Positions 283 to 49,028 of a stretch of 64,000 nucleotides of DNA are shown piece after piece; position 1 is the first letter of the stretch, and the number at the start of each line of letters is the position of its first letter. The DNA comes from Streptomyces sp. TG1A-8 (lineage in GTDB: Bacteria; Actinomycetota; Actinomycetes; Streptomycetales; Streptomycetaceae). Location of the stretch: the NCBI RefSeq assembly GCF_030499535.1, contig NZ_JASTLB010000001.1:1798001-1862000 (forward strand), in the 5' to 3' direction. The position numbers and the translations under genes are program-made. A model generated the notes under the pieces. It made no database searches. It saw only the letters and a program-made list of their open reading frames with translations, and was not told the origin of the DNA.

Positions 283-736
283 ACGGGTCCCGGCAGGAAC
301 CCGTGCGAGTCGGTGGGAGGAGCGGTTAGCGCGCGGCGGTGACCGCGCTCCGGGGGGTCCGGGCGTCCGTGGCCCGCGGGGGCGAGGACCGGGAACGGCG
401 TCCGGACTGGGCTCCGCTGCGAGGGCAACGACCCCGCAGGCCCTCGGGCCGGCGGCCGAGGCGGCCTGGAGCGTTGCGCGGAGCGGGGGTGCGGGCCATG
501 TCGGACGCTCTCCTCACGTGGGACGTACCGGCGGCGGACCGGAGTGCCGGCGGGCGCGTGCGGTGCTCATGACTCTGTCAAGAAGCCCTGACCTGGAACT
601 GATCCGTGGCTGACGGGGGCCGGTGGCCGGGCCGCCCGCGCCGCGCTGTCCGCCGGTTCCGCTCCGGTGGGCGTCGACGGCCCCGCTGGGCCGTCCCGTA
701 CCGGTGCGGTGCGGGCCGGGAACGCCACAACGCGTG

Positions 737-2712: not shown

Positions 2713-2741
2713 CTGCTTCCTTTCGTGCAGTCGACGGGTCG

Positions 2742-4379: not shown

Positions 4380-4405
4380 CGTGGTTTCCCGTCCCTTGCG
4401 TGACG

Positions 4406-7400
4406 TCACGCCGCCGGCACCGGGCCGAGCTGCCCGTCGACGAACTGGGCCAGCGCGCGGACCGTGGGGTGGTCGTGGGTGAGGGAGGCCGGCAGGGGCA
4501 GTCGGAAGGTCTGCTCCAGCCCGGCCTTGACCTGCTGGGCCATCAGCGAGTCCAGGCCCAGCGAGACGAACTCGGTGGACACCTCCAGCTCGTCGCCCTC
4601 CTCCAGGTGCAGGACGGCGGCGACCTTCTCGCGGACCACTCCGGTGACGGCGGCCAGGCGTTCGGCCGGGGGCAGCGCGGCGAGCGCGCCGAGGTCGAGG
4701 CCGGTGCCGTCGTCCTCGGAGGTCTGCCGGGCGAGCCGGTCGTAGAACAGGTCGCCGGTGACGCTGCCCGAGACGTAGCGGTCCCAGTCGAACTCGCCGA
4801 CGATCCGCTGGGTGCGCGGCCGTCCCCACAGCCGGGCCAGGGTGTCCAGGGCCCGGGTCGGGGAGAAGAAGCGGACGCCGCTGCGTTCGATCTCCTGGCT
4901 GAGGTGCTCCTCCAGCCGGGCCGACATGCCGACCCGGGCCCAGGCGCCCCAGTTCACCGACAGTCCCGGCACCCCGCGCCGGCTGCGCCACTCGGCGAGC
5001 GCGTCGAGCGCGGCGCTGGCGGCGGCGTAGTGGCCCTGGGTGGCGCCGCCGAGGACGGAGGCGATGGAGGAGTAGGTGACGAAGAACTCCAGCTCGGGGA
5101 AGGACTCCTCGGCCGCCTCGTGCAGCAGCCAGCCGCCGTAGGCCTTCGCCGCCAGCTGGGCGTCGATGGACTCCCAGGTCAGCTCGGAGACCAGCTTCTT
5201 GTCGTAGGAGCCGGCCGCGTGCACGATCCCGCCGAGCGGGTAGGGGCCGGCCCCGATCCGCCGCACCAGGCGCTGGACGTCCTCCGGGCGGCCGACGTCG
5301 GCGCGCACGACGTCGAGTTCGGCGTCGGCGGCGAGGTCGGCGAGGACCGGCGAGGCCTCCTCGGTGGCCCGGCCGCTGCGGCTGACCAGGGTCAGGTGGC
5401 GGGCGCCCAGCGCGACCAGCTTGCGGGCGGTGACCAGGCCCAGGCCGCCGAGACCGCCGGTGACCAGGTAGGTGCGGTCGGCGCGCAGGCTCGCGGGGCC
5501 CTCCTGCACGGGGTCGGCGTGCTCCTCGGCCGGGTCCGCCGGCAGCGTCACCCAGGCACGTCCGGCGGGGTCCGCGAGGGCGGTGCGCAGGGCCTCGCCC
5601 GTCTCGTCCAGCCGGAAGCGGGGCGCGGTGTCGTCGGAGCCGGTGACGTGGACGGCGGCGACCGCGGGGACGGTGAGCGTGGAGCGGAAGGTGCCGGTGT
5701 GCCGGACGAGGACCTCGTCACCGGGGGCGAAGCCGGTGCCCCCGGCGGCGGTGAGCACCGTGCCGCGGGCCGACCGGCCGAGCAGCGGCGGGGGTTCCTC
5801 CCCGGTGCCCTCCTCCTGGGCGCGCTCGGCGCGGCCGGTGTCCAGGGCGGCGCGGGCGTCCTCGACGGTCAGGCCGACGGCGCGCACCCGGACCTGGACC
5901 TCGTCGGGACCCGGTGCCCGGTCGGTGGCCGGGGCCAGGACCAGGTCGGACAGGTCGCCGGAGTCGGGGGCGCGCAGTTCGAACCCGCCGCTCCAGGTGA
6001 GGGTGGAGTCACCGGCGAGCAGCCGGCGCACGTAGCGGCGGCCCGGGCGGTGGGCGACCTGGTACTCGCCGGCCGGCTCGGTGCGCCACTCCTCGGCGAG
6101 CGGGGCGAGGCCGCTGCCCGGGGCGAGGTCGACCAGGGTGGCCCGGTACTGCGGGTACTCGGTCAGCAGCACCCGGCCGAAGCCCCACAGAGTGGCGGCG
6201 CCGAGGTGGCCGCCGTCGCCGGCCGGGTCGCCGGGCAGCCACTGGGCCCCCTCGGTGACCAGCCACAGCCGGGGCGGCCGGGACATGCCGGACGCGTCCA
6301 GCGCGCCGATCAGCGTGAGCAGTTCGCGGTAGTTGTCCTCGCACTCGGCGCGCAGCCGGCCGGCCGACATCGGCGCCGGGAGCTGCCGCCAGATCCGGCA
6401 GACGTCGGTGACGGTGGGGTCCTCCAGGGCGGCCTTGAGGTCGGTGGGGTCCGGCAGCCAGGTGACCTTCAGACCGGGCTCGGCGGCGAGCTCGGCGGCG
6501 CGCACGGCGGACGGGTCCAGCAGGACGACGTGCCGGGCCGGCGCGTCCTCCCTCGCCGGCAGGGCGCGGCGCACCCAGTCGGGGCGGTGCAGGAACCGGC
6601 GGCGGCCGGTGCGGTCCTCGGGCCGGGCCATGCGGACGCCGAGCAGTTCGGCGACCGGGTCGCCGTTCTCCAGCAGCAGCACGTCGGCCAGCCGCCCGTC
6701 CAGCTCGCCGCGGACGCGGGCGAGGACGCGCAGGTCCTCGCCGCGCGGCTTGCGGAAGTGCCGTACGGAGGCGATCTCGCGGGGCTCGAACACCGGGCCC
6801 TCGGGGTCGAGGACGACCAGCGCCTGGACGGCGGCCTCCAGCAGCTCCGCCGGGACGTGCTCGACGGCGGTGGCGTCGCGGCCGGTCAGCTCGCCGGTGA
6901 CCAGGCCGTCGTCGTGCCGGGCGGCGCGCAGCAGCAGCCGCATGCGGGGGCCCTGCGGGCGGCCGACGGAGGCGAGGTCGGTGTAGATGTCCTCGTCGTC
7001 GATCCGCTGGCCGGCGGGGGCCAGCGAGGCGTCCAGCTCGGCCAGCTCGGAGACCGGCACGAGGGGTTCGGGTCCGGCGGCGACGACGGCGGTGGCGTGC
7101 AGGTTCTCCTCGCCGCCGGCGACCGTGAACACCTCGATCCCGGCGCCGCCGCCGGGGCGGGGCCGCCAGCGGGTGGTCAGCGTGGTCGGGGTCTCGGCGG
7201 GCAGCTCCAGCGGGGCGAGCAGCCTGAGGTCGCGGACGGCGGAGCGGGCGTGGCCCTGGACGGCGTCCTGGACGGCCAGCAGCAGGTCGACGTAGGCGCC
7301 GGCGGGCAGGACGGTACGGCCGCCGTCGGCGCGGTCGGCGAGCGCGCCGAGTTCCTCGGTGGTGAACTCCGCGGTGAACTCCCGCACTCCGCTGGCGAAG

Positions 7401-10485: not shown

Positions 10486-10527
10486 GTCAGTGAGGTGTCA
10501 GCGCGGGGTCAGATTCCGCTGTCAGGC
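10486..10527 (+). promoter_or_regulatory. SARP-type operator for the azoxy core operon
   Basis: GTCAG begins at 10486, 10497 and 10508, giving three repeats with exact 11-bp spacing. A fourth GTCAG at 10521 is off phase by 2 bp. The array faces the gene starting at 10574. It is the longest repeat set in the window and probably the main activation point of the biosynthetic operon. Confidence 0.8.
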
Positions 10528-13408: not shown

Positions 13409-14704
13409 GTGACCGTCATTCAGGATTCCCCGGCGGCGACGGCCGCCGACAACGAGGCGGAGATCCTCGGCCTGTACCGGGCCCACCTCAGCAAGGGCCG
13501 GGCCACGCTCGCCGAGCTGTTCGGCAGCCACATGGAGACGGCGTCCGAGGGCGCCTGGCTCACCACCAGCGACGGTGAGCGCTTCCTGAACGCCGGCGGC
13601 TACGGCGTGTTCATCATGGGCGCCCGGCACCCGATCGTCATGGAGGAGGTGGAGCGCCAGCTGCGCACCCACCCCACCGCGACCCGCATCCTGCTGGAGC
13701 CGACGGTGGCCCGCGCCGCCGAGGCCCTGGTCTCCGTGCTGCCGCCCGGCCTGGACCGCGTGCACTTCGCGCTGTCCGGCGCGGAGGCGGTCGAGACCGG
13801 CCTGAAGCTGGCCCGCGCGGGCGGTTTCAAGCGGACCGTCTCGATGCGCGGCGGCTACCACGGCAAGACCCTCGGCGCGCTGTCGGCGACCGCGAAGGAC
13901 GTCTACCAGGCACCGTTCCGCCCGCTCGTGCCCGACTTCCTGCACCTGCCCTTCGGGGACGCCGACGCCCTGGAGGCCGAGCTCGCCGCCCACCCGGGCC
14001 AGGTGTGCGTGATCCTGGAGCCGGTGCAGGGCGAGGGCGGGGTCATCATCCCGCCGAAGGGCTACCTCAAGCGGGTCGAGGAACTGGTCCGCGAGTACGA
14101 GGGCTTCCTCATCCTCGACGAGGTGCAGTCCGGCTTCGGCCGGCTCGGCGAGTGGTGGGGCGCCGACATCGAGGGCGTCGTCCCGGACGTCCTGCTCACC
14201 GGCAAGGCGCTCGGCGGCGGGGTGATGCCGGTGTCGGCGGCCGTCGCCACCCGCAAGGCGTTCCGCCCCTTCGACAAGGACCCCTACGTCCACACCGCCA
14301 CCTTCTCCGGGCAGCCGGTGCTGATGGCCGCGGTGCAGGGCGCGATCCGGGCCGTCAAGGAGGAGCGCCTGGTCACCCGGGCCATGGACCTCGGTGCCCG
14401 GCTGCTGCCGCGGATCGCGGAGGTCGCCCACCGCAACATCCCCGAACTGGTCGTGGACGTGCGCGGCAAGGGTCTGCTCATCGGTGTGGAGCTCGTGGAG
14501 GCCGGCCTGGCCGGCGAGCTGCTGATCGAGCTGTTCAACCACGGCGTGGTCGCCAACCACTCCATGAACGGCAGCTCGGTGGTGCGGTTCACCCCGCCCG
14601 CCGTGCTGGACGACACCGACGTGGACTTCCTCGTCAACTCCTTCGACCTGGCCACCCGCGACCTCATCCGGGGCGCGGCCAAGATGCCGGAAGGCGGTAA
14701 CTGA
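13409..14704 (+). CDS. Class III PLP-dependent aminotransferase
   Basis: A 431-residue fold-type I aminotransferase of the ornithine/acetylornithine/GABA class. Visible marks are LSGAEAVETGLKLAR, VILEPVQGEGG, the PLP-ring Asp in LILDEVQSGFGR and the Schiff-base Lys in LLTGKALGGGVMP. It is predicted to transfer an amino group to an aldehyde. Placed after the ALDH-type enzyme and the N-hydroxylase, its likely job is to convert a long-chain aldehyde to a primary alkylamine. This replaces the valine decarboxylation that gives isobutylamine in valanimycin. It starts at GTG 13409 with GGAG upstream and ends 2 bp before the next gene, so the two are probably coupled. Confidence 0.9.
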   Translation: MTVIQDSPAATAADNEAEILGLYRAHLSKGRATLAELFGSHMETASEGAWLTTSDGERFLNAGGYGVFIMGARHPIVMEEVERQLRTHPTATRILLEPTVARAAEALVSVLPPGLDRVHFALSGAEAVETGLKLARAGGFKRTVSMRGGYHGKTLGALSATAKDVYQAPFRPLVPDFLHLPFGDADALEAELAAHPGQVCVILEPVQGEGGVIIPPKGYLKRVEELVREYEGFLILDEVQSGFGRLGEWWGADIEGVVPDVLLTGKALGGGVMPVSAAVATRKAFRPFDKDPYVHTATFSGQPVLMAAVQGAIRAVKEERLVTRAMDLGARLLPRIAEVAHRNIPELVVDVRGKGLLIGVELVEAGLAGELLIELFNHGVVANHSMNGSSVVRFTPPAVLDDTDVDFLVNSFDLATRDLIRGAAKMPEGGN

Positions 14705-15209: not shown

Positions 15210-15743
15210 ATGGACCAGGCGAACCCCTTCGAGACACCGCGCACGTACTCGCTGCACCGCGCCGAGTACCTGGTGGGTCTCGCCGTCACCACCGGCCTGA
15301 TCGTCTACCACTTCGGCGACATCCGCTGGCTGCCGGCGCTCGGACTGTTCCTCTACATCGACCTGATCGGCTACATCCCGGGTGCCGTCGCGTTCCGCAG
15401 GAGCGGTGGCCGGCCGATCCACAAGGCGTACTACGTCCTGTACAACGTCATGCACAGCCTCATCACGCAGGGCGCGGTGGCCGCGCTGTGGTGCTGGCTG
15501 GTCAAGCCCGAGTGGGCGCTGCTCGTGCTGCCGTTCCACCTGTTCGGCGACCGCGGCCTGTTCGGCAACTTCATGAAGTCCTTCGCACTGCCCTTCGAAC
15601 CGGTGCGCCAGGAGGGCTACCTGCGGCTGCTGGACGACCTGGGCCTGCCCCACCCCAAGCCGGTCGGGCACGCCATGGACCCGGTGCCCGTCGGGCACGT
15701 CCCGGCGCGGCCGGTCGTCCGGGAGACGGAGGCCGTGCGATGA
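15210..15743 (+). CDS. Small integral membrane protein, candidate N-N bond-forming enzyme (VlmO-like)
   Basis: A 177-residue protein with about four hydrophobic segments (near residues 18-34, 41-58, 80-98 and 102-118). It has scattered conserved-looking His and acidic residues (VYHFGD, YIDLIGY, HSLITQG, LPFHLFGD) that could bind metal. In valanimycin a membrane-bound metalloenzyme (hydrazine synthase) and a non-heme diiron azoxy synthase act as a pair. This gene is two genes before the diiron protein, and its size and topology fit the membrane partner. The function is inferred from operon context and general resemblance, not from an alignment. The start is supported by GAGGAG; the stop overlaps the next ATG (ATGA). 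Confidence 0.7.
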   Translation: MDQANPFETPRTYSLHRAEYLVGLAVTTGLIVYHFGDIRWLPALGLFLYIDLIGYIPGAVAFRRSGGRPIHKAYYVLYNVMHSLITQGAVAALWCWLVKPEWALLVLPFHLFGDRGLFGNFMKSFALPFEPVRQEGYLRLLDDLGLPHPKPVGHAMDPVPVGHVPARPVVRETEAVR

Positions 15744-16285
15744 CGACGGCCACCGACGTACGGCGTCCCGTCCGGCAGGACCCGGCGGAGCGCCGGCGGG
15801 CCCTGTACCACCTGGCGTCCCCGGTGTCGGTGCTGACCACCGGCCCCGAGGAGCGGATGCACGGCACCACCGCGAGCACGGTCACCCTCGTCTCGCGCGA
15901 GCCCCTGCTCGTCGGGGTCGCGCTGCGGGCGGGCTCGTCCTTCGCGCGGCTGGCCGCCGCCGAGGGCCGGTTCGCGATCAACGTGCTCGCCGGCGACCAG
16001 GCCGACGTGGCCCGGCGGTTCGCCGACAGCGGCCGGCCCGACGGCGAGGCGGCCTTCGCGGGCCTGGCCTGGACGGCGGACCCGTACGCGCACGCCCCGC
16101 TGGTCGCGGGCGCGCTCGCCCACTACGTGTGCCGCTTCCACTCCGCGCACGCGGCCGGCGACAGCGAGCTGCTGCTCGGCTACGTCGTCCGCGCCACCGC
16201 GGACGAGGGACTGCCGCTGTTCAGTTACGCCGGCGCGCTGTACGCCGGCTCCCTGCGCCCGGCGAAGGAGACCGCCGCATCATGA
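15740..16285 (+). CDS. NADH:flavin reductase domain protein (VlmR-like)
   Basis: A 181-residue split-barrel flavin reductase. It shows the classic HGTTASTVTLVSREPLLVG and FAINVLAGDQADVARRFA segments of the HpaC/flavin reductase-like family. It would reduce FAD or FMN with NAD(P)H and supply reduced flavin by diffusion to a two-component monooxygenase. The obvious partner is the N-hydroxylase at 12238, as with VlmR and VlmH in valanimycin; the LLM protein at 1633 could also draw on it. ATGA overlaps join it to both neighbours, so it is made as part of the azoxy operon. Confidence 0.9.
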   Translation: MTTATDVRRPVRQDPAERRRALYHLASPVSVLTTGPEERMHGTTASTVTLVSREPLLVGVALRAGSSFARLAAAEGRFAINVLAGDQADVARRFADSGRPDGEAAFAGLAWTADPYAHAPLVAGALAHYVCRFHSAHAAGDSELLLGYVVRATADEGLPLFSYAGALYAGSLRPAKETAAS

Positions 16286-17262
16286 CCGCACCCATTGCCC
16301 CCGAGGCCGACTGGGAGAAGGCACCCGGTCTGCTCGACGGCGCGAAGGAACTCACCCTCGGCCCCGAGGAGTGCGACCTCGCCTACTGGATCACCTCGGT
16401 GGCCCAGGGCACGCTGCGCGACCGCGGGGCGACCGGCCACCACGAGAACGCGATCACCCCGGACTTCCTGAAGGCACCCGGCCCGCTGCGCGAGGCACTG
16501 GTGCTGGAGTTCGGCTTCCGGGCGCTGGCGGAGGAGCTGGCCACCCGGCTGCTCGGCCACTACGTGTCGATCGCGCCCGGCATCCCGGAGATGGAGTTCT
16601 ACGCCACCCAGCTGCTGGACGAGGCCCGGCACGCCCGGGTCTTCCGCCAGCACCTGGTGGAGCTGGGCGTGCCGGCCGGGACCCTGCTGAAGGACATCGA
16701 CGAGATGGCCCGGGACTACCGCAAGCGGGTCCTCGACCCGGTGGTGGACTTCACCCTGGACATCGTCCGCGACCAGGCCGACTTCCCCGGCGGGGTGGCC
16801 GTGTTCGCCATCATCATCGAAGGGGTGCTCGCCCCGGCCGCCGAGCTGAGCGAGCGCAAGTGGACCCCGCTGTCCCCGGCGACCGGGGAGATCTCGCGCG
16901 GCACCGCCATCGACGAGATCCGCCACCTGACCGTGGCCAGCACCATCCTGCGCGACCACGTGATCGCGCACCCGGAGTACCGGCCGCGGCTGCTGGAGAT
17001 CCTGCGCGCCGGCGTGAAGCTGTGGGACGAGATCCCGGACCGGGAGTTCGTCATCCACCGCGAGGAACTGTTCCAGGAGGGCATGTTCCAGCACGCCGAC
17101 AAGATCGGGGACTACGAGATCTGGCCGGGCGTGCGGCTGCTCGACACCACCGCCGAGCAGCGCTACGACATGGCCGAGCAGTGGACCGACGAGATGGCCG
17201 AGGTCCGCATGAAGTACATGGGCCTGCCCGTCGAGGTCCTCTCCTCGGAGGCCGGCGCATGA
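16282..17262 (+). CDS. Ferritin-like non-heme diiron oxygenase, probable azoxy synthase (VlmB-like)
   Basis: A 326-residue all-helical protein with a complete diiron ligand pattern: a first Glu in FRALAEELATR, E-x-x-H in LLDEARHARVF, a third Glu in IIIEGVLAP and a second E-x-x-H in AIDEIRHLTVA. In the valanimycin pathway a non-heme diiron enzyme oxidises the hydrazine through azo to azoxy, after the membrane enzyme forms the N-N bond. Context supports the same role here: it lies in one operon with the membrane protein, the flavin reductase, the N-hydroxylase and the seryl-tRNA synthetase. It starts at ATG 16282 (AAGGAG upstream; ATGA overlap with the reductase) and overlaps the KAS III start by 4 bp. 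Confidence 0.85.
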   Translation: MTAPIAPEADWEKAPGLLDGAKELTLGPEECDLAYWITSVAQGTLRDRGATGHHENAITPDFLKAPGPLREALVLEFGFRALAEELATRLLGHYVSIAPGIPEMEFYATQLLDEARHARVFRQHLVELGVPAGTLLKDIDEMARDYRKRVLDPVVDFTLDIVRDQADFPGGVAVFAIIIEGVLAPAAELSERKWTPLSPATGEISRGTAIDEIRHLTVASTILRDHVIAHPEYRPRLLEILRAGVKLWDEIPDREFVIHREELFQEGMFQHADKIGDYEIWPGVRLLDTTAEQRYDMAEQWTDEMAEVRMKYMGLPVEVLSSEAGA

Positions 17263-19987: not shown

Positions 19988-21466
19988 ATGTCCACCAACG
20001 GTTCCCCGCCACCGTCGGGCCGGCTCGGTACCGGACACATCCTGTTCCTCATCGTCGCCGCCGCGGCACCGCTGTCCGCCATGGTCGGCACCGTCCCGCT
20101 CGCCTTCGCCCTCGGCGACGGAGCGGGCGTGCCCGCGGCCTTCCTGTTCGCCGGGATCACCCTGCTGTGCTTCTCGGCCGGGTACGCGGTCAGTGCCCGG
20201 CGCACCGGCGGCTCGGGCGGTTTCTACGCCTCCGTCGCCGACGGACTGGGCCGGCCGCCCGCGGTCGCGGCCGGGTACGTCGCCCTGCTCTCCTACAACT
20301 GCGCGACCATCGGCCTGGCGGGCGCGCTCGGCTACTTCACCCAGTTGGTGCTCGCCGCGCACGGGCTGACCGTGTCCTGGCAGTGGTGCGCGGCCGTCGG
20401 CCTGCTGCTGACCGCCGTGCTCGGCTACCGGGAGATCGCGCTCAGCGCCCGGGTGCTGGCCCTGCTGATGCTCGGCGAGATCGGGGTGCTGGCCGCCCTG
20501 GACGTGGCGATCCTCGCCCGGCACGGCGTGCACGCCCTGCCCACCGCCTCCTTCGCCCCGCACACCGCGGCCGGGCACGGCGTGGGGGTCTCGTTGATGT
20601 TCGCCTTCGTGTCGTTCATCGGCTTCGAGTCGGCCGCCCTGTACGGCAAGGAGGCGAAGGACCCGCGGCGCAGCGTGCCGCGCGCCACCTACGCGGCGGT
20701 CGTCCTGATCGCCGGTTTCTACGCCCTGACCAGCTGGCTGGCGGTGGGCGCGATCGGCAGCGACCGGGTGCGGGAGGTCGCCGGCGAGCAGATGGGCGAC
20801 CTGTTCTTCGTGCTCGGTGACGACTTCCTCGGCACGGCGGGCAGCACGGGCCTGCAGATCCTGCTGTGCACCAGCCTGTTCGCGGCGACGCTGGCCCTGC
20901 ACAGCGCCGCCAACCGCTACGCCCAGGTCCTCGCCGAGGACGGCCTGCTGCCCGGCTCCCTGGCCGTCGAGCACCCCCGGCACCGCTCCCCGCACCGGGC
21001 GAGCCTCGCGCAGAGCGCGCTGACCGCGCTGGTCGTGGCCGGGTTCGCGCTGGCCGGCCTGGACCCGTACGCCGACCTGACCACCAGCATGCTCGGTCTG
21101 GGCACGCTCGGCATCGTCGCCCTGCAGGCGCTGGCCGCGCTGTCGGTGCTCGGGCTGCGCCGGCGCACGGGCGGCGGGCACTGGTGGCGGGAGACGGCGG
21201 CCCCGCTGCTGGGCTTCGCGGGCCTGGCCGCCTCGGTGTGGCTGGTGGTCGGCAACTTCGACATGCTCACCGGCTCGCCGTCGAAGGTGATCGCCGTCCT
21301 GCCCTGGCTGCTGCCGCTGGTCGCCCTCGGCGGCCTGGTCCACGCCGCCCGGCTGCGCTCGGCCCACCCGCTGCGCTACCGCCTGCTCGGCACCCGCCAC
21401 ACCGGGTCCGCCGCCCCCGACCCCTCCCCCGCCTCCCCCGCCCTGTCAGGAGACCGCCATGCATGA
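19988..21466 (+). CDS. APC-superfamily amino acid permease
   Basis: A 492-residue membrane protein with about 12-13 hydrophobic helices. It opens with the APC glycine-rich TM1 (ILFLIVAAAAPLSAMVG) and has the FVSFIGFESAALYGKEAKDPRR segment typical of APC transporters. Its C-terminal tail is Pro/Ala-rich. It overlaps the seryl-tRNA synthetase start by 8 bp, so the two are made together. I infer it either imports an amino acid precursor such as serine or exports an amino-acid-like product; the sequence does not decide. The start at ATG 19988 has GGAG upstream. Confidence 0.85.
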   Translation: MSTNGSPPPSGRLGTGHILFLIVAAAAPLSAMVGTVPLAFALGDGAGVPAAFLFAGITLLCFSAGYAVSARRTGGSGGFYASVADGLGRPPAVAAGYVALLSYNCATIGLAGALGYFTQLVLAAHGLTVSWQWCAAVGLLLTAVLGYREIALSARVLALLMLGEIGVLAALDVAILARHGVHALPTASFAPHTAAGHGVGVSLMFAFVSFIGFESAALYGKEAKDPRRSVPRATYAAVVLIAGFYALTSWLAVGAIGSDRVREVAGEQMGDLFFVLGDDFLGTAGSTGLQILLCTSLFAATLALHSAANRYAQVLAEDGLLPGSLAVEHPRHRSPHRASLAQSALTALVVAGFALAGLDPYADLTTSMLGLGTLGIVALQALAALSVLGLRRRTGGGHWWRETAAPLLGFAGLAASVWLVVGNFDMLTGSPSKVIAVLPWLLPLVALGGLVHAARLRSAHPLRYRLLGTRHTGSAAPDPSPASPALSGDRHA

Positions 21467-22736
21467 CCCGCACGAGCTGATCGAGGCCGGCCCGGACGCC
21501 GTACGGCGCCTGGCCCGCCGCCGCCACGACCTCGACCTGGACGCCCTGGCCACCGCGCTGAGCGCCCGCTCGGCCGCGCAGGGCGAGGTCACCCGGTTGC
21601 GCACCGAGCTGAACCGCTCGGCCAAGGCCCGCCGCTCCGGGCCGCCCACCGAGGCGGAGAAGGAGGCGGCCCGTGCGCTGCGCGCCGAGGTGCAGCGGGC
21701 GGAGGCCACCGCCCGCACCGCCGCCGGGGAGCTGACCGAGCTGCTGCTCGGCATCCCCAACCTGCCGCTGGACACGGTCCCGGACGGCGACTCGGAGAAG
21801 GAGGCCGTGGAGGTGCGGCGCGGGGGTCCGGACCCGCGTCCGGCCGAGGGCGCCCGGCACCACGCCGAGATCGGCGAGGCGCTCGGCATCCTCGACCCCC
21901 CCGCCGCGGCGAAGCTCTCCGGTGCCCGGTTCAGCGTCGCGCACGGTGCCGGGGCCCGGCTGGAGCGGGCCCTGGGGGACTTCTTCCTCGACCTGCACAC
22001 CCGCGAGCACGGCTACACCGAGCAGTCGGTGCCGTTCCTGGTCAGCCGGGACACCATGACCGGGACCGGGCAGCTGCCGAAGTTCGAGGAGGACCTGTTC
22101 CGCACCCAGGTCGGCGACCGGGAGCTGTTCCTGATCCCGACCGCCGAGGTGCCGCTGACCAACCTGGTGGCCGGACAGCTCCTGGACGCGCGGTCCCTGC
22201 CGTACGCGTTCACCGCCCGCACCCCCTGCTTCCGGGCGGAGGCGGGGGCCTACGGCCGCGACACCCGGGGCGTGCTGCGGCTGCACCAGTTCGAGAAGGT
22301 GGAGCTGGTGCGGATCTGCGCGCCGGAGGAGGCGCAGGAGCAGCTGGAGTTGATGGCCGGGCACGCCGAGGAGTGCCTGCGCCGGCTGGAGCTGTCCTTC
22401 CGCACCGTGCTGCTGCCCGCGGGCGACATGGGCTTCTCGGCCCGGATGACGTACGACATCGAGGTGTGGCTGCCGGGCGGCGGCGCCTACCGGGAGATCT
22501 CCTCGGTGTCCGACTGCGGCACCTTCCAGGCCCGCCGCGCGGACATCCGGGTCAAGCGGGCCGACGGGCGCAAGACGCCGGCCGTCACGCTGAACGGTTC
22601 GGCGCTGCCGGTCGGCCGCACGGTGGCCGCCCTGCTGGAGCAGGGCGTGCAGGACGACGGTTCGGTGGTCCTGCCGCAGGCGCTGGTGCCGTACACCGGG
22701 TTCCGGCGGATCCTGCCGGGCGGGGAGACCGAGTAA
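21459..22736 (+). CDS. Cluster-encoded seryl-tRNA synthetase (VlmL-like)
   Basis: A 425-residue class II seryl-tRNA synthetase. Residues about 25-105 form the charged antiparallel coiled coil that grips the long variable arm of tRNA-Ser. Motif 2 reads FRAEAGAYGRDTRGVLRLHQF and motif 3 SALPVGRTVAALLE, with the class II Arg residues present; housekeeping enzymes usually have GLAVGRT in motif 3. In valanimycin a second SerRS supplies seryl-tRNA for transfer to a hydroxylamine. The transferase counterpart here is at 27045. SerRS recognises the acceptor stem and variable arm, not the anticodon. This matters for the tRNA-Ser-like gene at 28227, which keeps exactly those parts. Whether it is diverged enough to prefer that RNA cannot be told by eye. 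Confidence 0.93.
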   Translation: MHDPHELIEAGPDAVRRLARRRHDLDLDALATALSARSAAQGEVTRLRTELNRSAKARRSGPPTEAEKEAARALRAEVQRAEATARTAAGELTELLLGIPNLPLDTVPDGDSEKEAVEVRRGGPDPRPAEGARHHAEIGEALGILDPPAAAKLSGARFSVAHGAGARLERALGDFFLDLHTREHGYTEQSVPFLVSRDTMTGTGQLPKFEEDLFRTQVGDRELFLIPTAEVPLTNLVAGQLLDARSLPYAFTARTPCFRAEAGAYGRDTRGVLRLHQFEKVELVRICAPEEAQEQLELMAGHAEECLRRLELSFRTVLLPAGDMGFSARMTYDIEVWLPGGGAYREISSVSDCGTFQARRADIRVKRADGRKTPAVTLNGSALPVGRTVAALLEQGVQDDGSVVLPQALVPYTGFRRILPGGETE

Positions 22737-25473: not shown

Positions 25474-26598
25474 TCAGGCGGCTTCCACGGCGCGGCGCCG
25501 CAGTTGCTCCTCGACGTCACCGCGCCGGACGGGCGCGCTGACCTCGTGCAGGTAGGAGGCGACCTCGCGGTAGGAGGCCCAGAACCCGACCTCGTGGTAC
25601 GGCACCCCGCGTTCGGCGCAGTACGCGCGGGTCAGCTCCCGGGCGCGCCCCAGGTTCTTCTGCGGCATGGCCGGGAACAGGTGGTGTTCCACCTGGTAGT
25701 TGAGGCCGCCGTAGAGGAAGTCGATCAGCCAGCTGGGCCGGATGTTGCGGGAGGTGAGGACCTGGCGCTCCAGCCAGTCCAGGGTCTCCTCCTCGCCGTC
25801 GCGGACCTCCATGCCCTTGTGGTTCGGGGCGAAGATCATCCCGAAGTACACGCCCAGGGCGGCGTGCTGGACCAGGACGAAGGCGACCGCGAGCACCGGG
25901 GACAGGACGGTGAAGACCAGGGTGAGGTAGACGGCGGTGCGCAGCAGGATCAGGAACGACTCCAGCACGGGCCGCTTGGTCTTGCCCTGGGCGATCGACA
26001 GGATGGCCGTCTTCAGCATCTTGAAGCCCTCCAGCACGAGGAGCACGAAGAACAGCACGCTCTGGTAGCGCACGACGAACTTCTGGGTGCCCTTGCGGCT
26101 GGGGTACTGCTTGATGTCGAAGATGGCGGTGCGCCGGCCGATGTCCGGGTCCATGTCCAGGTGGTTGGGGTTGCTGTGGTGGCGGTTGTGGTGGTTGACC
26201 CACCAGCCGTAGCTGACCCCGTTGACCAGGTTGGCGTGGACGTAGCCGACGGCGGAGGCGGCCTTCTTGCTGCGGAACATGGCCTTGTGGCCGGCGTCGT
26301 GCCACATGAACGCCGACTGGCCGCCGCACAGGCCCATCCACAGGGCCGTGAGGAGCTGCCACCAGGAGTCGCCCAGCTCGAAGAACGCGGCGAACCCGAT
26401 CGCCAGCAGGGCGGTGTTCAGGGCCAGACGGCCGACGTAGTACCGCGGGTCGAGGTCGAGGAGGCCTTCGGACTTGACCCGTTTGAGCAGTTCGGCGAAG
26501 GTCGCCGAGGCGCCGGTGCGCTGTCCGGCGCCGGCTGCGGCACCGGCACCGGCACCGCCGGCCAGTGCCTCGCCTTCTCGTATGTGCGGACGCTGCAT
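25474..26598 (-). CDS. Membrane fatty acid desaturase
   Basis: A 374-residue integral-membrane diiron desaturase of the acyl-lipid/acyl-CoA family. The three His boxes are present: HDAGH (in WHDAGHKAMF), HNRHH and QVEHHLFP, with paired hydrophobic stretches between them. It would introduce a C=C bond into an acyl chain. In azoxy compounds such as elaiomycin an alkene lies next to the azoxy nitrogen, so I infer that it could form this bond or desaturate the fatty precursor. The start has AAGGAGAG 6 nt upstream. The promoter region with SARP repeats is about 205 bp upstream, leaving a long leader. Confidence 0.88.
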   Translation of the reverse strand: MQRPHIREGEALAGGAGAGAAAGAGQRTGASATFAELLKRVKSEGLLDLDPRYYVGRLALNTALLAIGFAAFFELGDSWWQLLTALWMGLCGGQSAFMWHDAGHKAMFRSKKAASAVGYVHANLVNGVSYGWWVNHHNRHHSNPNHLDMDPDIGRRTAIFDIKQYPSRKGTQKFVVRYQSVLFFVLLVLEGFKMLKTAILSIAQGKTKRPVLESFLILLRTAVYLTLVFTVLSPVLAVAFVLVQHAALGVYFGMIFAPNHKGMEVRDGEEETLDWLERQVLTSRNIRPSWLIDFLYGGLNYQVEHHLFPAMPQKNLGRARELTRAYCAERGVPYHEVGFWASYREVASYLHEVSAPVRRGDVEEQLRRRAVEAA

Positions 26599-26803
26599 GC
26601 GTTGCTCTCCTTGGGAGAAGTGCCCGGATCGGGCGGCGGCGCCGCTGCCCCGCGGACCTGCGGGCGCCGCGAGTCGACTTCAGCTCCCGCGCGGTCACCG
26701 TCGCGGGCTTCGGCCCGCCCGGCGGACCCGGCGACGGGAGCACAGTGCGGTACTCCCGGGCCCGGACCACCGGGCGAACGTGTGTCCAGCGTTCCGTGGA
26801 GCG

Positions 26804-26830
26804 CTGATGTGACACTGATACCGGTCTGAT
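26804..26830 (-). promoter_or_regulatory. SARP-type operator before the desaturase
   Basis: On the minus strand ATCAG occurs three times (26830-26826, 26819-26815, 26808-26804), each exactly 11 bp apart. The first base differs from the GTCAG core of the other sites. It faces the desaturase-MFS-ferredoxin-FabI series. Confidence 0.7.
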
Positions 26831-27044: not shown

Positions 27045-28052
27045 TCAGAAGGCGTTGCAGGCGCGGAAGACGTGCGCGAAGCCCGGCAGCGAGGCCTGCG
27101 GCCCGTCGAAGGCGACGTACTCGGGGATGACCACGTCCGGGGCCCACTTCTGCTTGTACGACAGCTGCGTCTGGGCCGGGTACAGGGCCGCGCCCTCGGC
27201 CCACAGGGCGTGCATCAGCCACTGGAACGCCGGGCTGTGACCGTCGAGTTCGTAGCCGGCGTCCAGGCCGGTGAACGGCGTGAACCCGAAGTGCAGCCAC
27301 TGCACGCCCTCGGCCCGGAACACCTCGATGGCGTGTGCGTTGATGGCCTCCATCAGGCCGGGCGAGCCCTCCGGGATGCGGCGGCTGAGGTCGTGCATCC
27401 AGCCCGCCCGGCTGCCGTAGACGGGCGAGTACGAGATGTAGGCGACCGGGGCGCCGTCGATGGTGCCGACGAACAGCCGGCGGTGCGCCTGGGCCTCGCC
27501 GCCGATCTGGCCGACGAGGAACTCCAGTTGCTGGGCGCCGCCCTTGGAGCCCAGCCACGCCTTGTCGATGACGGCGATGGCGTCCTGCACCTCGTCCGCG
27601 TGGGCCTCCCGGATCTGCAGACCGTTGCGGTGGGCGCGGGAGATCTTGTTGCGCAGCTGCATGAACTTGGTGCCGCGCAGCGTGAACTCGGGCAGGCTCA
27701 CCGCCCAGGAGGCGCCGACCTGGTTGACGGTGAAGCCGAGGCCGGCGTAGCGCTCGGCGTCGGCGCGCTGCAGCTGGACCCCGACCAGGGTCAGGCCCTC
27801 GTCGCGGACGTACTGGCGGAAGGCGTCGAGGAGGGTGCCGTAGTCCTGCTCGGCGGCGAACGGCCCGCCGAACTGCACCGCGTAGCGGCCGGTGCGGCGG
27901 TAGACGACGACACCGTCCGCGCCCGGGACGGTGAACGTACTGTTTCCGCTGTTGAGCGTCAGGAACGAACTGGGGTTCTCGGCGGCGGTGTGGGTGCGTA
28001 TGGCGTCGAGAACCGGGTTGTCCGTGAGGGTTTCGGTGGTGGTCGCGGTCAT
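27045..28052 (-). CDS. LPG-synthase C-like aminoacyl-tRNA-dependent transferase (VlmA-like)
   Basis: A 335-residue protein of the DUF2156 / phosphatidylglycerol lysyltransferase C-terminal type, a double-GNAT fold that takes the aminoacyl group from charged tRNA. The characteristic segment reads FTLRGTKFMQLRNKISRAHRNG, matching MprF-like proteins (L-G-K-x-x-x-x-L-R-x-x-x-N/x-R). WAVSLPEF precedes it, and the second GNAT half has GWMHDLSRR and LHFGFTPFTG. It is soluble: there is no flippase part. In valanimycin, VlmA transfers the seryl residue from seryl-tRNA to isobutylhydroxylamine. With a cluster SerRS and an N-hydroxylase, the same step on an alkylhydroxylamine is the best inference. The start at 28052 has AAAGGAG; an in-frame ATG at 28082 lacks one. 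Confidence 0.85.
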   Translation of the reverse strand: MTATTTETLTDNPVLDAIRTHTAAENPSSFLTLNSGNSTFTVPGADGVVVYRRTGRYAVQFGGPFAAEQDYGTLLDAFRQYVRDEGLTLVGVQLQRADAERYAGLGFTVNQVGASWAVSLPEFTLRGTKFMQLRNKISRAHRNGLQIREAHADEVQDAIAVIDKAWLGSKGGAQQLEFLVGQIGGEAQAHRRLFVGTIDGAPVAYISYSPVYGSRAGWMHDLSRRIPEGSPGLMEAINAHAIEVFRAEGVQWLHFGFTPFTGLDAGYELDGHSPAFQWLMHALWAEGAALYPAQTQLSYKQKWAPDVVIPEYVAFDGPQASLPGFAHVFRACNAF

Positions 28053-28144: not shown

Positions 28145-28173
28145 GTCAGAAGCGTGTCAGCATTCCGTCAGCG
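28145..28173 (+). promoter_or_regulatory. SARP-type operator before the tRNA-Ser-like gene
   Basis: GTCAG begins at 28145, 28156 and 28167: three repeats with an exact 11-bp period. Eight bases after the last heptamer is GACTGT (28182-28187), which would set a start near 28194, about 33 bp before the tRNA-like 5' end. The orientation is away from the transferase gene and toward the RNA gene. Confidence 0.75.
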
Positions 28174-28226
28174 CCCAGTGCGACTGTTGTTCCCGTGAAC
28201 GGCACGGGAAACCGGGCCGGACGCGA

Positions 28227-28323
28227 GGAGAGGTGCCCGGAGCGGCTGATCGGGGACCCGGAGCAAGCCTCCGAGTCGGGTCGGAAACGACCCGCGCAGG
28301 TTCGAATCCTGCCCTCTCCGCCA
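28227..28323 (+). tRNA. tRNA-Ser-like RNA with non-canonical anticodon arm
   Basis: A 97-nt class II tRNA shape. The acceptor stem is perfect (GGAGAGG 28227-28233 with CCTCTCC 28313-28319), followed by discriminator G28320 and encoded CCA. The T arm is perfect (GCAGG, loop TTCGAAT, CCTGC; 28296-28312). The long variable arm has a 7-bp stem (28277-28283 with 28288-28294) and a GAAA loop. The D arm is CCCG/CGGG (28236-28239 with 28251-28254), with a GG pair in the loop for the elbow contact. The anticodon arm is odd: CGGAG/CTCCG (28259-28263 with 28269-28273) leaves only a 5-nt CAAGC loop. With four pairs the 7-nt loop is GCAAGCC, which has C instead of U33 and would put AAG at the anticodon place. 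G73, G1-C72, G2-C71 and the variable arm are seryl identity elements. It is therefore probably serylated but unfit for decoding. Confidence 0.75.
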
Positions 28324-28509: not shown

Positions 28510-28601
28510 GCGGGTGTTCCATGTTCACCCGTTTTCTTCACCGCAGCGCGACCCCAGAAAGAAAGACCTTCGCCGAGGAATTGTCATCAAGGGGGGAAGA
28601 C

Positions 28602-29402
28602 ATGCTGAGGTTCTCCGTACTCGGGGCACTGCAGATACTCACCGCGACCGGACCGGCGGACATCTCCGGTGACCTGCAGCGCACGCTGGTGCAGACCCTG
28701 CTGGTCAGTGAGGGGCAGCCGGTGTCCGGGGAGGGTCTGGCCGAGGAGATGTGGGGCGACGCCGTCCCCGACAACCAGGCCAACGCCCTGCAGGCGCACA
28801 TCAGCCGGCTGCGCCGGCGGCTGCGTGACCTCGAACCGGGGCGGTCGTCCTCCCGGGTGACCATCCACCCCTCCGGCTACCGGCTGACCGTGGCCGAGGG
28901 CGAACTGGACGCGGCCGAGTTCATCCGCGCGGTGCGGCTGGCCGAGTCCGCCGGTCCGGACGACGCGGCCCACACGGCGCGGATGCTCGGTGACGCGCTC
29001 GCGATGTGGCGCGGTCCCGTCTTCGGCGGCTTCTCGGGCGGCACGCTGTGCCAGCTCGCCGGCGCCCGCTACGAGGAGTACCGGATGCGCGCGATGGAAC
29101 TGCGCTTCGACGCCGAGCTGCGGCTCGGCCGGCACGCCGCCGTCCTCGCCGAACTGACCGAGGCCCACACCAACCACCCGCTGCGCGAGCGCTTCTGCGA
29201 GCAGCTGATGATCGCCCTGTACTGCTCGGGACGGCAGGCCGACGCCCTGGACGTCTTCCGCCGGATGCGCCGCCACCTGGACGACGAACTCGGCATCCAG
29301 CCCTCCCCGTCCCTGCGCCGGGTGGAGAACGCCATCCTCTGCCACGACCCCGCCCTGACCGGCGGTGGCGCCCGCACGCCCATCCGTCTCCAGCCCGCCT
29401 GA
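28602..29402 (+). CDS. SARP-family pathway activator
   Basis: A 266-residue Streptomyces antibiotic regulatory protein. It has an N-terminal OmpR-type winged helix (residues about 1-95; LRFSVLGALQI through ALQAHISRLRRRLRD and GYRLTV), then a bacterial transcriptional activation domain (about 100-250; TLCQLAGARYEEYRMRAMELR, ALYCSGRQADALDVFRRMRRHLDDELGIQPSPSLR). It lacks ATPase or TPR extensions, so it is a small SARP like ActII-ORF4. It is expected to bind the 11-bp-period GTCAG repeats found before seven units of the cluster, including the tRNA-like gene just upstream. The ATG at 28602 follows a strong GGGGGGAAGA site; an upstream in-frame ATG at 28521 lacks one. Confidence 0.93.
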   Translation: MLRFSVLGALQILTATGPADISGDLQRTLVQTLLVSEGQPVSGEGLAEEMWGDAVPDNQANALQAHISRLRRRLRDLEPGRSSSRVTIHPSGYRLTVAEGELDAAEFIRAVRLAESAGPDDAAHTARMLGDALAMWRGPVFGGFSGGTLCQLAGARYEEYRMRAMELRFDAELRLGRHAAVLAELTEAHTNHPLRERFCEQLMIALYCSGRQADALDVFRRMRRHLDDELGIQPSPSLRRVENAILCHDPALTGGGARTPIRLQPA

Positions 29403-39752: not shown

Positions 39753-41805
39753 TCACAGGCGCGGGTCCACCGGCTCCGACTCCAGGGCCAGCACCCCGGA
39801 CACCGCCTCGTGCACCCGCCACAGCGGCTCACCGCCCGCGAGCCGGTCCAGGGCCTCCAGGCCGAGGGCGTACTCGCGGACGGCCAGGGACCGCTTGTGG
39901 TCCAGGGACCGGTGCCGCAGCCGGGCGAGGTGGTCGGGCCGGGTGTACTCGGGACCGTAGACGATCCGCAGGTACTCGCGGCCCCGGACCTTGACGCCGG
40001 GCTGCACCAGCCGCCCCTGCGCGGAGCGGACCAGCGCGCCGGCCGGCTTGACGACCGTGCCCTCGCCGCCCCGGCCGGTCGCCTCCAGCCACCAGCCGAC
40101 GCCGGCGCGGACGGAGCCGGGGTCGCCCGTGTCCACGTACAGCCGACGCGTGGTCTGCAGCAGCCCGGTGCCGTCGTGCTCCACCAGGCGGTTGATCAGC
40201 GCCAGTTGCTCGTCGCGCGGCAGCGCGGCGAGGCTGCGGCCCTGGGCCGCCAGGATCTGGAGGGGGGCCAGGCGGACCCCGTCCGGACCGTCGGTGGGCC
40301 AGCAGTAGCGGCGGTACGCCCTGGTGAACGCGGATGCCGCGGCGGCGCGTTCCCGCTGGCGCGCCAGCAGGCCGCCCACGTCGGTGCCGCGGGACGCCGC
40401 CGCCTCCAGGGCGGCGAGCGCGCCGGGGAACACCGCACCGGAGGCGGCGCCCACGGCCGCGTACTGGCTGCGCAGCAGACCGGCCGCCCTCAGCGACCAC
40501 GGCATCAGCTCCGCGTCCAGCAGCATCCGGTCCGTGGCGAGTTCGTCCCACAGCCCCGCCCGCCCGACCGCCGAGCGCAGCCGGCCGAGGAGTTCCTCGG
40601 TCGTCCCCGCGTCGTCGAAGAAGGGCCGCCCGGTACGGGTGTAGAGGGACCCCGTGGGCCCGTCCACGCACTTCTCCGGCAGGCCGGCGTGGCAGACGAC
40701 CAGCCGGCCGCCGTCGAGGACGTAGCGGCTGACCAGTCCGTCCAGGAACCGGCGCACCTCCTGCCTGAACTCCTCGCTCTCGCCCTCCATCTGGGCGATG
40801 GTCTCGGCGAGGCCGTGGGTGGGCCGGACGGTGCGGCCCCCGAGGTGACGGCCGTACCTGTTCTCGTGGTTGCCCGGCACGCACAGCGCGTTGCCCGCCG
40901 CCACCATAGGCGTTTCCGCAGGTGATTCCTCGTGCCGGATAGGCAGGACGCGCGGGTCCACGCGGCCCTCAATCTTGAACGGCGGCAGCACGGGCATCCC
41001 CGCCGGAAGCGTCCCCTCGTTGGGAATCGCCCTCATGATCTCGTCCCAGACGCCAGCACGAAGCCAGCGGTTGAACCGAGTGTGCACGGTCTTCCAGAGG
41101 ACATCGCCCGAGACCTCGATGCCGTACCACCCGCACCCGGTGCGCGCCTTGAACAAGATGCCGTCGACCACAGCGCGGCCGTCGATCAGGCGATGGTTCG
41201 GCGGCTCCCACGCCTTGACGACAGGTTCCACCAGGGCCCGCACCTCGTCGGTCAGCGGCGGTGGTACCAGCCGCCCCGAGTCGGCGAACGGCGTTCTCGA
41301 TCTCCTCCGCACCGCGCAGGACGTGCACCTTGCGGAAGCCCTCGCGTTCCAGGTGCCGCAGGGAGCGGCGCAGTTCGCGGACGTGCCGCTGGACGACCCG
41401 CCGGGGCGTGCCGGCGCGGTCGGGGCGGGCCGCGTTGCGCTGCGCGCAGACCTCCTCGGGCACGTCGAGCACGACGGCGATGGGCGGCACGTCGTGCTCC
41501 CGGGCCAGTTCGACGAGCCGGCGCCGGCGGTCCTGCTGGACGCCGGTGGCGTCGATGACGGTGCGGCGGCCGGCGGCCAGCCGCTTGCCGGCGATGTAGT
41601 GCAGGACGTCGAAGGCGTCCCCGGTGGCGCTCCGGTCGTTCTCGTCGTCGGCGACGAGGCCGCGGCAGAAGTCGGAGGAGATCACCTCGGTCGGCGTGAA
41701 GTGCCGGCGGGCGAAGGTGGACTTGCCGGAGCCGGAGGCGCCGACGAGGACCACCAGGGAGAGGTCCGTGACGGGCAGGGTCCGTCCCGTGCGGGTCCCG
41801 GTCAT
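39753..41805 (-). pseudogene. Polynucleotide kinase-phosphatase (Pnkp) gene broken by an IS remnant
   Basis: The 5' part (41805 to about 41290) encodes the RNA-repair kinase: VVLVGASGSGKSTFARRHF P-loop, SSDFCRG and VIDATGVQQDRRRRLVELA. The 3' part (about 40915 to 39753) resumes inside the phosphatase (CVPGNHENRYGRHL) and continues through the C-terminal ligase-like adenylyltransferase region (GEGTVVKPAGALVRSAQGRLVQPGVKVRGREYL). Between them lies transposase-derived sequence. The metal-binding start of the phosphatase (GD-x-H-G and GDLVDRGP) is lost. The 3' part is still open as a 519-codon chimeric frame starting in the insertion. The kinase ATG has GGAGG upstream. No Hen1 gene is adjacent. 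Confidence 0.8.
40920..41285 (-). mobile_element. IS5-type transposase N-terminal remnant
   Basis: The translated segment LTDEVRALVEPVVKAWEPPN, followed by DGILFKARTGCGW, WKTVHTRFNRW and WDEIMRAI, is the N-terminal domain of IS5-family transposases common in Streptomyces. Only about 90 residues remain; the DDE catalytic part is absent. I cannot place exact ends or see convincing terminal inverted repeats, so the borders are approximate. It interrupts the Pnkp gene in the same orientation. Confidence 0.75.
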
Positions 41806-47219: not shown

Positions 47220-49028
47220 ATGACGGTCCTGCCTGACGACGGGCTCCCGCTGGCCGCCGAGTTCCCTGACGCGACACACGAGCAGTGGCAACGCCTCGTC
47301 GAGGGCGTGCTGCGCAAGTCCGGCAAGGAAGTCTCGGGCGAGGCAGCCGAGGAAGCCCTGTCCACCACGCTCGAGGACGGGCTGCGCACCCGGCCCCTGT
47401 ACACCGCGCGCGACGGCGCGCCCGACCCCGGCCTGCCGGGCTTCGCCCCGTTCGTGCGCGGCGCCCGGCCCGAGGGGGGCACGGCGGGCGGCTGGGACGT
47501 GCGGCAACGGCACGCGGCGCTCGCCGAGGGCGCGGTGCTGACGGACCTGGAGAACGGCGTCACCTCGCTGTGGCTGGTGCTCGGCGAGGGCGGTATCCCG
47601 GTCGCGGACCTGGGCCGCGCCCTCGACGGCGTGCACCTCGACCTGGCGCCGGTCGTCCTGGACGCCGGCCGCGACACCGCGGCCGCCGCCGAGGCGCTGC
47701 TGCGGCTGTACGAGGCCGGGGGCGCCGGCCCGCAGGCCGTCCGCGGCAACCTGGGCGCGGACCCGCTCGGATACGAGGCCCGTACCGGCACCGCGCTGGA
47801 CTTCGCGCCGTTCGCCGAGCTGGCCGCGCGCTGCGCCGAGCGGTACCCGGGACTGCGCGCGCTGACCGTGGACGCGCTGCCGTACCACGAGGCGGGCGGT
47901 TCGGCCGCGCAGGAGCTGGGCGCCTCGCTCGCCACCGGGGTGGCGTACCTGCGCGGGCTGACCGGGGCCGGTCTCGGCGTCGAGGCGGCCTGCGCGCAGC
48001 TGGAGTTCCGTTACGCGGCCACCGCCGACCAGTTCCTGACCATCGCCAAGCTGCGCGCCGCGCGCCGGCTGTGGGCGCGGGTGGCCGAGGTGTGCGGGGC
48101 GCCGGCCGCGGGCGCGCAGGTCCAGCACGCCGTGACGTCGCCGGTGATGATGACCCGCCGCGACCCGTGGGTGAACATGCTGCGCACCACGGTCGCCACG
48201 CTCGCGGCCGGGGTCGGCGGCGCCGGCTCGGTGACCGTGCTGCCGTTCGACCACTCGCTCGGCCTGCCCGACGCCTTCGCCCGCCGCATCGCCCGCAACA
48301 CCTCCACGATCCTGATCGAGGAGTCCCACCTGGCCCGGGTGATCGATCCGGCGGGCGGCTCCTGGTACGTCGAGCGGCTGACCGACGAACTCGCGGGCGT
48401 CGCCTGGGAGTTCTTCCGGTCCGTCGAGCGGGACGGCGGGCAGGCGGCCGTGCTGCGCTCCGGCCGGATCCGCACGGACCTGGCCACGACGTGGGCGCAG
48501 CGGTCCAAGCAGCTCGCCAAGCGGCGCGAACCCGTCACCGGGGTCAGCGAGTTCCCGGACCTCGCCGAGAAGCCGGTCGTGCGCGAACCCGCGCCCGAGC
48601 CGCCGTCCGGGGGCCTGCCCCGGGTGCGCCGGGACGAGGCGTTCGAGGCGCTGCGCGCCCGCTCCGACGCCCACCTGGCCGCGACGGGCGCGCGCCCCAG
48701 GGTCTTCCTCGCCACGCTGGGCTCGGCCGCCGAGCACACCGCCCGCTCGACGTTCGCCGCCAACCTGTTCCAGGCGGGCGGCATCGAGCCGGTCACCGGG
48801 GGCCGCTTCGAGGACAGCGGCGCCACCGAGGCCGTGCTGTGCTCCAGCGACGCGCTCTACGCCGAAGGGGCGGAGCAGGCCGCCCGGTCACTGCGCGCGG
48901 CCGGCGCCCGGCACGTGTTCCTCGCGGGCCGCCCGGCCGGCCACCCGGGCGTCGACTCGTACGTCTTCGCGGGCTGTGACGCCGTCGACGTCCTGTCCGC
49001 GACCCTCGACCGCATGGGAGTGTCCTGA
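47220..49028 (+). CDS. mutA: Methylmalonyl-CoA mutase small subunit
   Basis: A 602-residue protein homologous to the large subunit but lacking the complete B12-binding His motif: the C-terminal domain reads [25 protein letters not shown] where the large subunit has G-x-DGHDRG. It pairs with MutB to interconvert succinyl-CoA and methylmalonyl-CoA. The ATG at 47220 follows the end of the broken membrane gene by 10 bp. Its stop overlaps the mutB start (TGATG). It links to polyketide precursor and propionate metabolism but lacks a SARP operator. Confidence 0.95.

Follow-up and report, generated by a model that had tools for sequence, protein, structure and literature searches.

The 64,000-nucleotide stretch of Streptomyces sp. 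TG1A-8 analysed here (contig NZ_JASTLB010000001.1, positions 1,798,001 to 1,862,000; hereafter the window) carries a tRNA-like RNA gene at 28227..28323 on the plus strand, supported by ARAGORN, folding, family alignment and covariation and consisting of a 94-nt body up to G73 followed by an encoded CCA. A sequence-only reading of this DNA had claimed an intact serine-type body, and this is what we found. The acceptor stem (5' strand GGAGAGG at 28227..28233, partner CCTCTCC at 28313-28319) has 7 bp and no mismatch, the D arm (28236..28254, from alignment and sequence) has a 4-bp stem that includes a G-C pair of the 13-22 type, the long variable arm (28278..28293) has a 6-bp stem with a GAAA loop, the T arm (28296..28312) has a 5-bp stem and the discriminator G73 lies at 28320, all on the plus strand. 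The claimed CCA end is present in the window gene but is not a family trait, as only 13 of the first 72 copies collected encode it. In place of the anticodon arm the fold gives a hairpin at 28255..28277 (+), with the 5-nt loop CAAGC at 28264-28268. The same reading had foreseen either a 5-nt loop or a 7-nt loop lacking U33, and folding returned CAAGC and, as the alternative, GCAAGCC; the oddity of the arm also stood, and we can add that its stem is longer than the normal 5-bp anticodon stem, extending through 3 bp, one C/A mismatch and a further 5 bp before the loop.

Annotation tools mislabel these genes. ARAGORN reports 28227-28323 (+) as 'tRNA-Leu (gag)', and members of the family as a whole receive sixteen different amino-acid labels from it. 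Scanning the window against Rfam gave no family at gathering score; with relaxed thresholds the best sub-threshold family for the RNA was tRNA-Sec RF01852, at 34.3 bits where its gathering score is 47, and the RNA also fell below the gathering cut-off of the Rfam tRNA family RF00005 and was not among the 70 matches to that family in its own genome. Against a covariance model built from its own family it scores 93.7 bits. The resemblance to tRNA-Sec, which is charged by seryl-tRNA synthetase (SerRS), lies in the long variable arm; tRNA-Sec has acceptor and T stems of 8 + 5 bp whereas here they are 7 + 5 bp, and the window copy has no UCA anticodon. Identity as a selenocysteine tRNA was ruled out by the score under the RF01852 cut-off together with these stem lengths. 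Transfer-messenger RNA (tmRNA) is likewise a charged tRNA-like RNA without an anticodon, but it acts on ribosomes and carries a message, and ARAGORN, which also seeks tmRNA, called a tRNA at this position.

The features of tRNA-Ser identity, namely the long variable arm, G1-C72, G2-C71 and G73, are present in the window RNA. Serine identity in bacteria is reported to reside mainly in the variable arm, G1-C72 and G2-C71 and not in the anticodon, while G73 repels the leucyl- and tyrosyl-tRNA synthetases in E. coli (PMC9976931). By predicted fold, neither the window RNA nor any of 118 distinct family copies has the 7-nt loop, U33 and serine anticodon that together define a decoding tRNA-Ser. The strain's four normal tRNA-Ser genes, with which the sequence-only reading proposed a comparison, were all located (GCT, TGA, CGA, GGA), and with these in the genome the window RNA is unneeded for decoding serine codons.

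The RNA gene lies within an azoxy cluster. Divergent from it is a VlmA-type aminoacyl-tRNA transferase (27045..28052, minus strand; PF09924, protein family match), and on the plus strand at 28602..29402 is a regulator of the Streptomyces antibiotic regulatory protein (SARP) type, with BTAD and Trans_reg_C domains by a family match on 28521-29402 and an ATG at 28602. A second SerRS, 39% identical to the genome's other SerRS, is encoded at 21459..22736 (+), a class-III aminotransferase at 13409..14704 (+), a candidate VlmB at 16129..17262 (+) and a desaturase at 25474-26598 (-). Further genes encode an aldehyde dehydrogenase, a cyclase-like protein, a ketosynthase, a carrier protein and a permease, and an acyl-CoA-dehydrogenase-fold protein occupies the VlmH position. 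VlmA, a VlmH-like protein, a VlmB-like protein, SerRS and SARP thus occur together as in a valanimycin-type azoxy cluster, with VlmB assigned from a weak AurF match under the cut-off and from a gene order equal to that of a plasmid cluster with an annotated VlmB-like protein. VlmO was not established in the cluster, where the open reading frame 15210-15743 had no Pfam match.

The same RNA is widespread beside genes of this kind. Searching other azoxy clusters, also suggested by the sequence-only reading, was done through a VlmA protein scan that led to 64 fetched loci; a pattern scan found the RNA in 49 of them, and the covariance model added L042, at a contig end, to give 50/64. For 12 of the 14 VlmA loci without a local RNA, copies are found elsewhere in the genome. 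RNA and VlmA recur together in Streptomyces, Kitasatospora, Actinacidiphila, Streptantibioticus, Salinispora, Actinokineospora, Sphaerisporangium and Rhodococcus, and tandem arrays of 2 to 5 copies are present at 14 loci. In one Kitasatospora genome (G573, L288) five tandem copies lie by one VlmA gene and a pair of copies lies ~16 kb from a second. A one-off change in strain TG1A-8 was ruled out by the occurrence of the RNA in so many other loci and genomes. The sequence-only reading had named absence of a similar RNA from related clusters, combined with random decay, as what would speak against its proposal; what we saw is an RNA recurring with VlmA across genera. Phage and E. coli collections held no match to the RNA.

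Conservation in this family is markedly uneven. Sixty-one distinct sequences were obtained from the initial 72 copies, which came from 47 of the loci plus the window; with further loci the set grew to 156 copies (some being the same place in overlapping loci) and 118 distinct sequences, leaving out the truncated L042 copy and two Salinispora copies. The latter (L081 9698-9785 and L091 9735-9821, minus strand) have one extra C in the T stem, which is odd for a tRNA. The acceptor stem reads GGAGAGG/CCTCTCC in 112 of the 118 distinct sequences; four have the compensated GGAGAGA/TCTCTCC and two have GGAGAGG/CTTCTCC, so that the stem is base-paired in these six as well. The T arm is identical in 107 and G73 is present in all 118. 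As the pattern used to collect copies spans the T arm and the acceptor 3' strand and tolerates at most 3 substitutions, conservation there is partly an entry condition, although the changes seen were far fewer than the pattern allowed. The hairpin in the anticodon position, on the other hand, varies in length and its loop sequence drifts freely: predicted loops are of 3 nt in 18 distinct copies, 4 in 64, 5 in 30, 6 in 3 and 7 in 3, U33 is absent from all three 7-nt loops, and the recurring tetraloops include GCAA, TTCG and GAAA. The nine copies in the TG1A-8 genome repeat this gradient, with mean pairwise differences of 0.000 in the acceptor and T arm, 0.049 at positions 8-25 and 0.210 in the anticodon/variable region. 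In an alignment of 38 sequences 98.9% of cells are paired, and changes on both sides are seen for 8 of the 24 pairs, where shuffling gives a mean of 2.1. Since the same RNA is found in many genomes and its stems covary, the fold is, on this comparative evidence, not due to chance.

The copies also share a promoter architecture. Upstream of the window RNA are three GTCAG direct repeats at 11-bp spacing (28145..28173, +), boxes of the SARP type, with a predicted -10 element, GACTGT, 8 bp past the last repeat (28182..28187, +). We assembled the upstream regions of 104 distinct first-in-array copies, having set aside 35 downstream array copies, one short or N-cut copy and repeated upstream sequences, and found TCAG repeats at exact 11-bp spacing three times in 82, twice in 15 and once in 7. 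In 10,400 mononucleotide shuffles two repeats arose in 0.07% and three never. Three repeats precede 45 of the 46 first copies from VlmA loci and the window, and among the 58 other first copies 37 have three, 15 two and 6 one; in the Kitasatospora loci returned, three or more were found for 27 of 29 first copies. Two or more repeats are present for 97 copies; in these the hexamer 8 bp past the last repeat has A at position 2 and T at position 6 in 83 copies each, and is CACTGT in 9. This geometry of 11-bp direct repeats, the last 8 bp from the -10, is that of published SARP promoters, and CACTGT is the -10 of afsS (PMC10936776). Triple repeats of the same type also precede the biosynthetic genes (10486..10512, +, placed by position) and the desaturase gene (26803..26830, -). 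The exact triple repeat occurs at 16 sites in the TG1A-8 genome and at none in a reversed control. Of these sites five precede RNA copies, two belong to promoters of the azoxy cluster, one is at window 588-613 and the other eight are elsewhere. The cluster's own SARP is predicted to bind the RNA promoters. Our search of the open-access literature found no paper joining SARP, direct repeats and GTCAG. More SARP-type triple repeats without the RNA are seen at L253 (G000:C1:452000-471900) and L254 (G000:C1:284000-293000), one region having six in a row, and perhaps mark another SARP-controlled cluster.

These data bear on one rival explanation, that the gene is a decayed tRNA-Ser pseudogene or an integration scar. 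The unusable anticodon arm would fit such an origin, as would the apparent decayed RNA 3' end that remains just upstream of VlmA in L038 and L061, whose genomes carry other copies. But outside the anticodon and variable arms every part of the RNA is either conserved across genera or changes with compensation, the promoter is conserved too, and among 20 scanned proteins neighbouring dispersed copies none matched a mobile-element family. We regard decay as scarcely credible, and conservation, covariation and conserved promoters led us to rule it out.

Beyond what the sequence-only reading had described, the RNA gene is multicopy and dispersed, with a SARP-type promoter. In TG1A-8 there are nine copies on contig C1, at 476864, 514876, 746791, 749772, 985676, 1777831, 1826227 (that of the window), 4669214 and 6637431; their neighbour genes are varied, and relatives carry up to 15 copies. 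Nine plasmids bear the RNA, six of them with VlmA as well, while in S. griseofuscus VlmA is chromosomal and the RNA is on a plasmid in addition to chromosomal copies. A plasmid of Streptomyces sp. NBC_01766 (L108) has an alanyl-tRNA synthetase gene at 2126-4780 (+) near two extra RNA copies, together with an azoxy-type VlmA and SerRS. That copies adjoin unrelated genes, and that VlmA is kin to lipid aminoacyl transferases, might suggest that the RNA serves some other SARP-controlled aminoacylation, of cell wall or lipid, and keeps company with VlmA through a common lifestyle or regulon. We hold this to be very improbable, as one copy or array is usually beside VlmA or within ~15 kb of it and the presence of the RNA tracks the VlmA tree.

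This association was quantified in 246 Streptomyces genomes, calling the RNA at E < 1e-12 and VlmA at E <= 1e-60. With stricter filters applied in this scoring, the RNA was found in 29 genomes, the next-ranked genome matching through an ordinary tRNA-Ser. VlmA was present in 28 of the 29 RNA-bearing genomes and 22 of the 217 RNA-free ones; the one RNA-bearing exception (G182) has a 36% identical relative 2.4 kb from the RNA. Among 70 Kitasatospora genomes VlmA was present in 9/9 with the RNA and 2/61 without. Fisher tests that ignore relatedness give p = 4e-22 and 8e-10 for the two genera respectively. On a VlmA tree of 103 rows the RNA label changes 3 times, compared with 19.4 in shuffles; this tree omits L048, whose contig stops just within the RNA, and of the 22 RNA-free genomes with VlmA it draws on 20 VlmA places from 19 (all but G111, G167 and G233). 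RNA-free rows fall into a clade of 18, the pair L183 and L185, and L069, whose genome gave no match and whose contig stops before the RNA site of its nearest relatives, L071 and L073. Within the clade, L187 carries a reductase, an aminotransferase, an acyl-CoA-dehydrogenase-fold protein and a flavin reductase, a set resembling that of azodyrecin, which by analogy would link it to an alanyl-tRNA type of synthesis. In a phylum-wide sample of 296 genomes VlmA occurs in 2, too sparse for a cross-table, and the sample was used as a specificity control: strong matches came from the TG1A-8 genome only, and the best matches of eight other genomes, at 60-67 bits, were all ordinary tRNA-Ser by ARAGORN.

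Taken together, these comparisons favour the proposal of the sequence-only reading, that the RNA cannot decode and carries serine for the azoxy pathway alone. As the simplest interpretation, we think it quite probable that this tRNA-Ser-like family has kept its accepting half, lost a usable anticodon and serves as a serine carrier dedicated to azoxy-antibiotic synthesis. A broader formulation we would also call likely, if a little less confidently: an anticodon-free 'metabolic tRNA' family of tRNA descent, serving only to carry amino acids into antibiotic synthesis, would form with its transferase and often its own SerRS a private seryl channel alongside translation, and would be expressed as a distributed regulon of up to ~15 genes driven by the pathway SARP. 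Transcription of the RNA, its serylation and its use by VlmA are steps that we infer from sequence. A SARP, probably the cluster's own (28602-29402), would activate the dispersed RNA genes along with the azoxy genes, with RNase P and the addition of CCA then maturing the transcript. The anticodon plays no part for SerRS, so the RNA would be charged by the cluster SerRS or, where that copy is missing, by the housekeeping SerRS. VlmA, which is known to transfer serine from seryl-tRNA to a hydroxylamine (PMC12945691), would take that serine from the RNA, and the near-invariant acceptor and T arm are likely the marks that it reads. A carrier that could not decode would keep its serine away from translation, and having it encoded many times over would boost supply during production.

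Several observations weigh against this interpretation and should be considered. L183 and L185, two VlmA clusters counted as having serine-type genes, have no RNA that we could find, and RNA-free L185 carries YegS-like, MmgE and SARP genes as in valanimycin-type serine chemistry; these genes suggest serine chemistry despite the missing RNA and so a real counter-example. Eight of the nine TG1A-8 copies lie outside the azoxy cluster, and eight of the 16 triple repeats are at places that have no connection with the RNA, which leaves room for other regulators acting through boxes of this type. Seven close relatives of the window's cluster (L031, L034, L038, L040, L061, L080 and L083) lack a copy beside VlmA, which looked like counter-evidence until whole-genome searches located copies elsewhere. 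The in vitro characterisation of VlmA employed seryl-tRNA-Ser (PMC12945691), so an ordinary tRNA may suffice. Finally, a cluster-type SerRS is present in only 16 of the 29 RNA-bearing Streptomyces genomes and also in 18 of the 217 RNA-free ones. The suggestion that the cluster SerRS charges the RNA is weakened to that extent; a tight pairing of the two is only partly true, and we have treated SerRS as a looser partner and moved the weight to VlmA.

The 13 RNA genomes without this SerRS raise the idea that VlmA receives an amino acid other than serine from the RNA, in some or all clusters. One such amino acid could be alanine, but alanine tRNAs carry G-U at pair 3-70, unlike the A-U of our family alignment. 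Even with a VlmA homologue of azodyrecin synthesis having been proposed to use alanyl-tRNA (PMC9379638), we judge a different amino acid to be quite improbable. It is also conceivable, if unlikely, that the RNA is a regulator or decoy, whether a sponge that binds SerRS or VlmA or a sensor of starvation, which keeps a tRNA shape for binding and passes no serine to the product. Its multiple, dispersed and apparently co-regulated copies would suit such a role, and a non-translating pseudo-tRNA with regulatory effects is known from Bacillus cereus (PMC3399842). The acceptor stem, T arm and G73 are nevertheless its most conserved parts, a better fit to a charged substrate, and its strongest partner is an enzyme that uses aminoacyl-tRNA; both favour the serine carrier.

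Carrier tRNAs outside translation have precedents. In Staphylococcus aureus, non-proteinogenic tRNA-Gly species for peptidoglycan bridges can likewise be charged, are believed to bypass translation and supply a FemX-type transferase (PMC4052509), and VlmA has been likened to FemABX enzymes (PMC12945691). Those isoacceptors have features of weak EF-Tu binding and are not described, in the available part of that article, as lacking an anticodon arm (PMC4052509); the window RNA differs in having no usable anticodon, in its serine type, in its azoxy pathway and in its dispersed copies with SARP-type promoters, and its family is at the far end of this class. The tRNA-Other of Bacillus cereus is also a tRNA-like gene outside translation and linked to antibiotics, but it retains a Trp anticodon, accepts an amino acid poorly, belongs to a larger regulatory RNA and, in the available description, has no biosynthetic transferase partner (PMC3399842). 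The valanimycin VlmL/VlmA route likewise unites SerRS, a VlmA-type transferase and SARP in an azoxy cluster, though it is described with ordinary Ser-tRNA and the available parts of the articles name no dedicated RNA (PMC4052509, PMC12945691). Our search of the open-access literature, with subscription papers and preprints outside it, found no description of such an RNA.

A 2014 review listed as unknown how Ser-tRNA leaves translation for valanimycin and which tRNA features VlmA and VlmL read (PMC4052509). The present finding makes the question of this diversion directly testable, and it points to the nearly unchanging acceptor/T-arm sequence as a candidate for the mark that VlmA and SerRS recognise. 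If correct, it would explain how the cell keeps antibiotic-bound serine out of protein synthesis, and the RNA would be a case from nature of a tRNA that can be charged yet is no longer bound to the genetic code. On a practical level, the RNA offers a sequence marker for genomes with this azoxy pathway.

Two other features of the window were noted. An ordinary-looking tRNA-Val (cac) gene lies at 48455-48528 (-). The open reading frame at 39753-41312 (-) matches both DUF4096, a transposase N-terminal family, and a PNKP-type ligase domain, and possibly reflects an overextended start beside an insertion sequence remnant.
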